From positions 1 through 64,000 of the forward strand of contig ONAD01000006.1 of NCBI GenBank assembly GCA_900315735.1: DNA of 64,000 nt, in the 5' to 3' direction. The notes beneath the pieces are model-generated. The model searched no databases. It was not told the DNA's origin and saw only the letters and a program-made list of their open reading frames with translations. Positions 1 through 8,712 of the stretch are shown here, in pieces. The position numbers and the translations under genes were made by a program. Numbering within the stretch: the stretch's first letter is position 1; every line of letters starts with the position of its first letter. The DNA comes from an uncultured Lachnospiraceae bacterium (GTDB lineage Bacteria; Bacillota; Clostridia; Lachnospirales; Lachnospiraceae).

Positions 1-5
1 GCTGG

Positions 6-90
6 CGAATCTTTTCGATGGGTCTTTAGACCCCAGTGCCGGTAACAGCCCCTTCTAGGGGCAGAACAAACCACCGGCTAAGCCGGTGGT
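6..90. other. Stacked hairpins at the window edge, possible IS200/IS605 right end
   Basis: Four short inverted repeats sit one after another: CGAA/TTCG (6-9/14-17), GGGTCT/AGACCC (20-25/28-33), GCCCCT/AGGGGC (48-53/57-62) and ACCACCGGCT/AGCCGGTGGT (70-79/81-90). This density of subterminal hairpins resembles the right ends of IS200/IS605-family elements, where the region also encodes the TnpB guide RNA. That is a resemblance only, because no tnpA or tnpB lies inside the window. The last hairpin could instead be a simple terminator for a gene to the left, although no T-tract follows it. Confidence 0.45.
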
Positions 91-124
91 TGTGATTTAT
101 GTAAATAAATGTAAAGACTTAAAT

Positions 125-1006
125 TTAGATTTCCATCAGGAAGTGAATTGTTCCGAATGGGAAAATAATAGGAAATACATAAATCTTAGTAGCATTTGTA
201 AGCTTTTCTTCTTCATGAACTTCCGGAGGACATAAGTTTAATTCCAGAGAAAATTCATTAGACATATTTACATTGAATAATCCGTTGTGAAGATTTAAGA
301 AATCTTCGATAGAAGCTTTTACATACTCATCGAATTCCTGAAATTCTTCTTTGGCATAACGGGATGCAAAAGCAATCGCAACGGTTTTGCTCATGTCTAC
401 ACCAGAGTTAAAAGCAAGTAAACCTTCATCCTTCTGGGTAACACAATAGTTTGTCATGTACTCGGATTTCATCAGTGGATTTAATGGTGTGAAATCCTTT
501 CCGATAAAACGAACGATATCATTGAAGAGAAGATTAAGGTATGCAACAATCTTTCCGGACATATCAGAATCATCAAAGTGGAAGAACTTATGAATCAGTT
601 TCTCAACCATATCATTTTGTTCATTTGCAACATTCAAATCTTCAATTTCATTACTTGCCTGATATTCTGCAAGTAAATCTTCGAACTGGCTGTTAGTAAG
701 CAGTCCGTCTTCAATCAAAATCTGACCTAACAGCAGATAATCCGGTTTCTGGGAAGAGAGTAGTTCGTCCACCTGTTCTTTGGTAAGGTATCCACCTTCA
801 ATGGCAATTTCACCGAATTTTTTATCTTCGTGAGTCTGACGGCATACGATCGCATCTACCTGAGAAGCATTTAAAAAGCCGGCATGAATTGCCAGAGTTC
901 CCAATTTCAGATAGGAAGAGGACTGTCTCTCTAATGCATCAACCAGCTTATCAGCAGGAACAGCACCTTTGCTTAAAAGAAAGTTTCCAAAAAACTGTGT
1001 ATACAT
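125..1006 (-). CDS. CheX-type phosphatase domain protein with N-terminal MshEN-like repeats
   Basis: A 293-residue protein with two parts. Residues 6-116 hold four copies of a motif repeated every 29 residues (starting at F6, L35, F64 and L93), of the form L/F-G-x-x-hydrophobic-x-x-x-G-x-x-x-x-x-x-hydrophobic-x-x-x-L-x-x-Q. This matches the MshEN/GSPII_E N-terminal motif, known to bind c-di-GMP in some proteins. Residues about 150-293 resemble CheX: D235-x-x-N238-x-x-x-G242 aligns with the E-x-x-N-x-x-x-G phosphatase motif, with Asp in place of Glu. The start has a GGGAGA site 8 bases upstream. The gene lies 3 bases downstream of a CheY-like receiver gene, its likely substrate. The c-di-GMP link is inferred from the motif alone. 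Confidence 0.8.
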   Translation of the reverse strand: MYTQFFGNFLLSKGAVPADKLVDALERQSSSYLKLGTLAIHAGFLNASQVDAIVCRQTHEDKKFGEIAIEGGYLTKEQVDELLSSQKPDYLLLGQILIEDGLLTNSQFEDLLAEYQASNEIEDLNVANEQNDMVEKLIHKFFHFDDSDMSGKIVAYLNLLFNDIVRFIGKDFTPLNPLMKSEYMTNYCVTQKDEGLLAFNSGVDMSKTVAIAFASRYAKEEFQEFDEYVKASIEDFLNLHNGLFNVNMSNEFSLELNLCPPEVHEEEKLTNATKIYVFPIIFPFGTIHFLMEI

Positions 1007-1009
1007 AAA

Positions 1010-1387
1010 TTATCTCCCTTCAAAATGATTCTTCAGTACTCGTTCAATCTGCTCGACATTCAATGGTTTCTGGATGAAATCTTTTGCACCGGCTTCAATC
1101 GCATTCTTTAACTGAGCCTGTGTACCAACAGAAGATACGATAATAATAACCGCTTTCGGGTCAATTTCTGTAATTTCTTTAACAGAAGCAATACCATCTT
1201 TAACCGGCATAACAATATCAAGGAAAATGATATCAGGTTTATCGGATTTAAATTTGTCAATTGCCTCCTGACCATTTGCTGCCTCTACAAAAGTTGTTCC
1301 GCCATATTGTGCAATGACATCTTTTAACTGTTTTCTTGCCAGAATGGAATCGTCTCCAATCAGGATCTTTGCTTCGTCTAATTTCAT
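1010..1387 (-). CDS. CheY-like single-domain response regulator
   Basis: A 125-residue protein made only of a receiver domain. It shows the acidic pocket (GDD near residues 10-12), the phospho-acceptor Asp in FLDIVMP, a switch-region Ser in IIIVSS and the conserved Lys in DFIQKPLN. There is no output domain, so it probably acts by binding a partner, as CheY does, or as a phosphate sink. The start at 1387 is chosen because GGAGGGAT lies just upstream; a TTG five codons earlier would overlap that site. It is first in a two-gene operon with the CheX-type gene. No flagellar or chemoreceptor genes are nearby, so a role in motility is not shown here. Confidence 0.85.
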   Translation of the reverse strand: MKLDEAKILIGDDSILARKQLKDVIAQYGGTTFVEAANGQEAIDKFKSDKPDIIFLDIVMPVKDGIASVKEITEIDPKAVIIIVSSVGTQAQLKNAIEAGAKDFIQKPLNVEQIERVLKNHFEGR

Positions 1388-1432: not shown

Positions 1433-1461
1433 ATACTACAATAGTTGACCAAAAGTTTCAA
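1433..1461 (-). promoter_or_regulatory. Predicted promoter for the CheY/CheX pair
   Basis: On the minus strand TTGAAA (1456-1461) is followed after 17 bases by TAGTAT (1433-1438), about 45 bases before the start codon of the receiver gene. Prediction from sequence only. Confidence 0.45.
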
Positions 1462-4876: not shown

Positions 4877-4902
4877 AACAATTACAAAAAGCAAATAGTT
4901 TT

Positions 4903-5077
4903 ATGCCTGGGATGTTCGACACGCCTGTTATTTTGAACCTACATTTACTTTAAACGGGATTCCAATATCTCCAATAGGATGTCAGGCCTCCGTTTGCAGT
5001 GGAAGGCAGAGTATTGGTTGAGGTTACCCACCTAGCTTTGCTAGGAGTCAAAATACAGGAAACGGCATTTTGGGTAT
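4903..5077 (+). ncRNA. ssrS: 6S RNA (RNA polymerase regulator)
   Basis: A structured gene of about 175 nt with no open frame. Its ends form a 12-base-pair closing stem (4903-4914 with 5066-5077) rich in G-U pairs. The interior holds blocks I recognise from clostridial 6S RNAs: TTTTGAACCTACAT, AAACGGGATTCC, GGATGTCAGGCCTCCG, and ACCCACCTAGC...GCTAGGAGTC followed by GGAAACGGCATT. 6S RNA mimics an open promoter and holds sigma-A RNA polymerase in stationary phase. It has its own promoter and a terminator about 130 bases downstream, so the primary transcript may be longer and then trimmed. Assigned from memory of the family, not from a covariance search. Confidence 0.8.
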
Positions 5078-5208
5078 ATTTGCTAAAGATAAGGTATGAA
5101 TATACGAAAGAATCTTTGTGTACAAAAGAATCATAAGGTACGGAAGATAAACATATAGTATACCAAAGAAGCATGTTTACAAAAGAACCGAAAATACAAA
5201 AGAGAAAA

Positions 5209-8384: not shown

Positions 8385-8637
8385 TAGTGAAAAAGTAAAA
8401 GGCAATGAAAGTGTTCAGTAGATTATTGTACTTTTTAAAGAGAGAGGAAATCATCGGCTGAAAGTTTCCTTAAGGTAAGGCAGTAATTGAATTTCGCACG
8501 GAAGCTGCACAGGTGAACGTTAGTAGTCTGTGACGTTGTACGCGTTAAGTATTTATGAGTGTCTAATGATTTAGAAATCAGGGTGGTACCGCGGAGTAAT
8601 TTCGTCCCTATGGGAAGAAAATGCTTCGCGTTTTTTT
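8385..8637 (+). promoter_or_regulatory. T-box leader controlling pheST (tRNA-Phe sensing)
   Basis: The leader contains the invariant T-box sequence AGGGTGGTACCGCGG (8580-8594) followed by the complementary CGTCCCT for the antiterminator. A competing terminator stem pairs CGCGGAG (8590-8596) with CTTCGCG (8624-8630), ending in seven T residues. Stem I is visible as AAAAAGTA pairing with TACTTTTT near the 5' end. The probable specifier is a TTC codon in GAATTTCGC, matching phenylalanine and the downstream genes. Uncharged tRNA-Phe would stabilise the antiterminator and allow pheST transcription. Confidence 0.93.
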
Positions 8638-8675: not shown

Positions 8676-8712
8676 TTATGAATGAAATAAAATGATAGAA
8701 GGAGATATTATT

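Follow-up and report, generated by a model that had tools for sequence, protein, structure and literature searches.

Two described systems lie closest to the locus reported here. The first is the MshEN/GSPII domain of Vibrio cholerae MshE, Thermus PilF and E. coli NfrB, which is built from 24-residue motifs with 5-residue spacers and forms a four-helix bundle with conserved Gly and Gln contacts. According to Wang et al. 2016, the polar contacts of MshE with c-di-GMP involve the backbone of two motif Gly and two Gln residues, an isolated 62-residue MshE subdomain binds the ligand, and XpsE/GspE illustrate that MshEN domains are able to lose binding (PMC5013675). PilF GSPII-B, which has Lys and Leu in the first-residue positions, binds c-di-GMP with an affinity of 6 nM (PMC11731258). 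The second system is the CheX phosphatase of Borrelia burgdorferi (with CheY3) and Thermotoga maritima. CheX requires an acid and an amide; in CheZ the acid is an Asp, found in a DxxxQ motif (PMC3510030).

The protein analysed here shares the motif length, spacers, predicted bundle and contact residues of the first system, and the fold, active-site helix position and CheY partner of the second. It differs from MshE, PilF and NfrB in having four repeats, Lys first residues and no MshEN_C subdomain, and its repeats are joined to CheX whereas theirs are joined to an ATPase or glycosyltransferase. It differs from the Borrelia and Thermotoga CheX proteins in its N-terminal c-di-GMP-type domain, in its dedicated, linked CheY and, within its own clade, in an Asp that replaces the catalytic Glu.

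The MshEN-CheX architecture is not new. It is known by bioinformatics, since Wang et al. 2016 name CheX, together with CheA and REC, among the domain associations of MshEN, in one clause; this is the same pair of domains in one protein, and the available portion of that paper attaches no operon, CheY pairing or motility link to it (PMC5013675). An earlier note, made from the sequence of this DNA alone, knew of no described system with this combination. For the architecture that has to be qualified; the conserved operon, the gene fusions and the motility link appear to be undescribed in the literature searched. We found no paper besides Wang et al. 2016 that names both MshEN and CheX, and, of 30 papers on CheX with c-di-GMP, the 25 judged by title and abstract opening do not describe the system.

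Results

A two-gene operon

The window, a 64,000-nucleotide stretch of DNA from an uncultured Lachnospiraceae bacterium, contains a two-gene operon on the minus strand in which a lone CheY comes first and the fusion gene follows after a gap of 3 nt (Table 1). The open reading frames bear out the earlier note on the positions of both genes and on the lone CheY neighbour. Below, the window clade is the clade of the fusion protein at 125-1006(-), and the sister clade is the other main clade compared. Sigma-A-like sites lie upstream in 19/56 clade members against 0.3 expected. Control by sigma-28 was rejected, as none of the 56 clade members, the window operon included, has a sigma-28 site upstream of the operon. 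Citrate synthase and the other flanking housekeeping genes were also rejected as functional partners; the neighbours vary between clades and show no link.

Table 1 Features of the operon (window coordinates)
Feature	Position	Strand	Basis and remarks
MshEN-like x4 - CheX fusion, 293 aa	125..1006	-	ORF, NCBIfam NF053729, AF2 pLDDT 88, fold matches; stop codon 125-127
Repeat 1, residues 5-28	923..994	-	FFGN start invariant; first residue not basic
Repeat 2, residues 34-57 (K34-L-G...Q57)	836..907	-	First half of predicted c-di-GMP site; relaxed published motif fits
Repeat 3, residues 63-86 (K63-F-G...Q86)	749..820	-	Second half of predicted c-di-GMP site; relaxed motif fits; residues 32-89 on 5htl_B
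Repeat 4, residues 92-115	662..733	-	Leu first, Tyr115 replaces Gln; degenerate in sister clade
CheX domain, residues 145-293	128..574	-	VIA-align Z 18.4 to 3hzh_B; profile match to Borrelia CheX
Catalytic motif D235-F-L-N238 (CheX ExxN position)	293..304	-	Alignment with Borrelia and Thermotoga CheX
Lone CheY receiver, 125 aa, from ATG	1010..1387	-	Response_reg 2.9e-24; first operon gene
Likely sigma-A type promoter TTGAAA-N17-TAGTAT, before cheY	1433..1461	-	Sequence motif

MshEN-type repeats and the predicted ligand site

Four 29-residue repeats lie within residues 5-115 of the fusion protein. The exact period, first seen in the earlier note, is clear within residues 1-126, where 25/97 residue pairs are identical at offset 29 and no other offset between 20 and 39 gives more than 15. 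The accompanying reading of all four repeats as c-di-GMP motifs stands for two of them. The relaxed 24-residue MshEN motif of Wang et al. (PMC5013675) has two exact matches, in repeat 2 (34-57) and repeat 3 (63-86), with the 5-residue spacer 58-62 between them; the other two repeats, at 5-28 and 92-115, have no basic residue in first place and fit only when that position is relaxed. Nor does every repeat end in Gln (the fourth ends in Tyr115), and in repeats 2 and 3 the Leu said to stand at the fifth position is replaced by Ala, five residues on from the basic one. Shuffling the segment produced one or more matches to the published motif in 0.03% of cases, and the motif occurred in none of 1036 neighbouring ORFs. 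Across relatives the alignment indicates that the complete motif is kept in repeats 2 and 3 only, and the idea of four equal c-di-GMP sites was rejected on this ground.

The MshE polar contact positions correspond to G36, G65, Q57 and Q86 of the fusion protein, each of which is near invariant in the window and sister clades. In most homologues repeats 2 and 3 start with Lys or Arg (121/129 rows at position 34), but repeat 1 does not. The affinity for c-di-GMP is uncertain, because the positions of MshE Leu25/Leu29 are Val and those of R9/R38 are Lys; by analogy with PilF GSPII-B, Lys or Leu in place of Arg would be compatible with nanomolar binding. Within the window clade, repeats 3 and 4 could form a pair. 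Since repeat 4 is degenerate in the sister clade, the predicted site common to both clades is formed by repeats 2 and 3.

A search with MshEN models, proposed in the earlier note, gave a divided answer. NCBIfam NF053729, a model of the MshE-related c-di-GMP motif, gives 72.3 bits (cut-off 38) and matches in 55/55 close homologues, but the Pfam MshEN model PF05157 has no match anywhere in the genome, and the MshEN-type claim therefore does not lean on it. A sequence profile aligns residues 32-87 to VcMshE 7-62 without gaps. With the full AF2 model (pTM 0.78), Foldseek pairs 53 columns with c-di-GMP-bound MshE (5htl_B) at rmsd 0.9 and probability 1.00, yet with E 1.1; the N-terminal half alone gives no significant Foldseek E-value (best 1.0). 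In VIA-align, residues 32-89 of the model, spanning repeats 2 and 3, superpose on c-di-GMP-bound MshE with Z 10.2, and the N-terminal model alone has MshE as its top row at a Z of only 7.1, followed by PilF GSPII-B entries. In view of the weak Foldseek E-values, the MshEN claim is based on the HMM match, the residues of the motif and the superposition without gaps. The predicted structure has the four-helix bundle fold expected of the ligand site, and the MshEN-type assignment of the earlier note is supported.

Weak Pfam matches to FumaraseC_C, RTX_C and DUF4388 fall on the helical repeats and were set aside as motif resemblance. FumaraseC_C matches residues 57-86 (window 749-838) in 49/55 homologues, with E down to 1e-6, and aspartase C-termini are among the structural matches, possibly reflecting a distant resemblance to the MshEN-type helical module.

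The CheX domain

The C-terminal domain is confirmed as CheX by profile, fold and sister-clade evidence, despite a Pfam CheX score below cut-off (E 0.0088). A profile of the domain finds Borrelia CheX at E 3.7e-4, and the Pfam scores of sister-clade proteins are near or above the cut-off. In VIA-align, residues 148-293 match eight CheX-type entries with Z from 15.6 to 18.4, as expected of the CheX/CheC fold; the best is Borrelia CheX of the CheX-CheY-BeF3 complex (3hzh_B; 142 residues, rmsd 2.1).

The D-x-x-N-x-x-x-G motif of the earlier note is found as D235-F-L-N238-x-x-x-G242, in which D235 and N238 take the places of the catalytic Glu and Asn when aligned with Borrelia CheX. Asn238 and Gly242 are invariant. 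Asp at the catalytic Glu position is fixed in the window clade and present in 58/67 rows of the wider group, on one branch, whereas Glu is found in 60/62 sister-clade homologues and in all out-of-family homologues. D-x-x-N is a derived state with a single origin on the branch to the window clade. The replacement is not in itself a sign of inactivity, because the CheZ acid is also an Asp. Stand-alone CheX proteins without repeats that resemble the C-terminal domain occur as frames of 152-173 residues (G230:C53:83950-84381, G162:C13:21827-22321 and G201:C94:87009-87470).

Linkage to CheY

The operon CheY conserves D12, D13, D57, S85 and K107 and, at 125 aa without an output domain, is a single-domain receiver. 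The genome encodes only one other lone receiver, the canonical CheY that stands with FliM-FliY in the flagellar operon. CheY lies directly upstream of the fusion gene in 55/55 close homologues. Over 129 loci (the window, the 55 close homologues and 73 further loci from genome surveys), CheY adjoins or is fused to the MshEN-CheX gene in 125: 68 upstream, 47 downstream and 10 C-terminally fused. Gene order is reversed between clades, and the fused state requires two changes on the tree, i.e. about two origins; because order differs and fusion arose about twice, the CheY pairing has survived rearrangement. The linkage, including the ten REC fusions, supports a CheX domain that would act on CheY-P, and the dedicated partner suggested in the earlier note is thereby upheld. 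The natural MshEN(x4)-CheX-REC proteins have 432-467 residues (L070, L075, L076, L089, L093, L096, L098, L100, L111 and L116).

Distribution and genomic setting

The fusion protein is present in 93/298 Lachnospiraceae genomes, about a third. In Fisher tests that ignore ancestry, carriers are enriched for GGDEF proteins, i.e. diguanylate cyclases (93/93 against 150/205 others; p 1e-10), CheW (92/93 against 68/205; p 2e-31) and flagellin (89/93 against 64/205; p 2e-28). As 68 CheW-positive genomes are without it, the fusion is dispensable for chemotaxis. Other families of the phylum have a match, mostly over full length, in 17/398 genomes. Carriers include the named cultured species Roseburia hominis, R. 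faecis, Eubacterium plexicaudatum and Lachnobacterium bovis.

In the window genome there are 18 matches to GGDEF and three to the CheW domain, together with a che cluster whose ORFs read as CheB-CheA-CheW-CheC-CheD and a flagellar operon containing FliM-FliY-CheY. In one relative (L077) the CheY-fusion pair stands at the end of a flagellar-chemotaxis operon. At five sister-clade loci (L062, L063, L095, L099 and L103) a GGDEF gene lies next to the fusion gene in divergent orientation; those of L062, L099 and L103 are GGDEF-EAL, with weak Pfam matches to Cache and HAMP in L062 and L099.

Discussion

We propose, as the probable reading of the sequences and models, that c-di-GMP gates dephosphorylation of a second CheY (CheY2) and so joins c-di-GMP to flagellar signalling. 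Motile Clostridia would have, in addition to the canonical flagellar CheY, a further single-domain receiver, CheY2, phosphorylated most likely by the CheA of the cell, and the fusion protein would be the CheX-type phosphatase of CheY2. The N-terminal repeats would bind c-di-GMP in a pocket formed by repeats 2 and 3, and binding would alter the engagement or dephosphorylation of CheY2 by CheX. The level of CheY2-P, set by c-di-GMP, would then act on flagellar switching or on phosphate flow from CheA. The proposal builds on the domain identities, the motif residues, the CheY pairing, the CheX-CheY fusions and the tendency to occur together with chemotaxis, flagella and diguanylate cyclases. Its predicted parts are binding of the ligand, activity as a phosphatase, the role of CheA as kinase, the direction of regulation and the output. 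Several points count against it: the Val and Lys at MshE contact positions make the affinity uncertain, the catalytic Glu of CheX is replaced in the window clade, 68 CheW-positive genomes do without the fusion, and the cells already have CheC- and FliY-like proteins, types known as CheY-P phosphatases elsewhere.

A tentative and rather unlikely alternative concerns the output only. CheY2, having no output of its own, would drain phosphate from CheA at a rate set by CheX. The position of CheY2 apart from the flagellar operon, whose own CheY adjoins FliM and FliY, would fit such a sink, though present data do not separate it from a motor-binding CheY2, and it may hold together with c-di-GMP gating.

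That the repeats are an MshEN-derived scaffold which has lost c-di-GMP binding and makes protein contacts, e.g. with the motor or the chemoreceptor array, seems improbable. The degeneracy of repeats 1 and 4 points this way, as does the MYTQFFGN of repeat 1, almost invariant in the 55 homologues and suggestive of a contact unrelated to ligand, and the loss of binding in XpsE/GspE, described by Wang et al. 2016, is a precedent (PMC5013675). Against this, both clades keep the contact Gly and Gln and, in repeats 2 and 3, a basic residue in first place, and every carrier genome encodes GGDEF proteins. We consider it quite improbable that the CheX domain is a reader and not an eraser, binding CheY2-P with poor hydrolysis so that the bound receiver controls c-di-GMP capture or protein localisation: the single-branch fixation of D235 could be taken that way, but Asn238 and Gly242 are invariant, the sister clade retains ExxN with the same CheY partner, and Asp can be the acid in a related mechanism, as in the DxxxQ of CheZ (PMC3510030).

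Returning to the gating proposal, we see an even chance that this is a widespread, previously uncharacterised system in which a CheY phosphatase, directed at a dedicated second CheY, is under direct gating by c-di-GMP, with sister-clade versions that would place sensor, phosphatase and receiver in one polypeptide. Gut Clostridia would then possess a post-translational link by which c-di-GMP reaches the phosphate flow of chemotaxis. PilZ proteins such as YcgR allow c-di-GMP to slow or stop flagella; gating of a CheY phosphatase by c-di-GMP would open a distinct route that targets the chemotaxis signal itself. As about a third of the sampled Lachnospiraceae carry the unit, cultured species among them, the system is testable and relevant to common gut bacteria.

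Other features of the window

A palindrome-rich repeat occupies window 1-97 at the contig start. An identical 97-bp copy opens contig C24 (G000 C24:3-99) and a second copy, at 82%, lies at C19:95117-95175; given these copies, the repeated element probably broke the assembly here. Rfam identifies a 6S RNA gene at 4901-5080 (+) (RF00013, 81 bits) and a T-box leader at 8396-8612 (+) (RF00230, 117 bits), the latter directly 5' of a pheS-like ORF at 8692.
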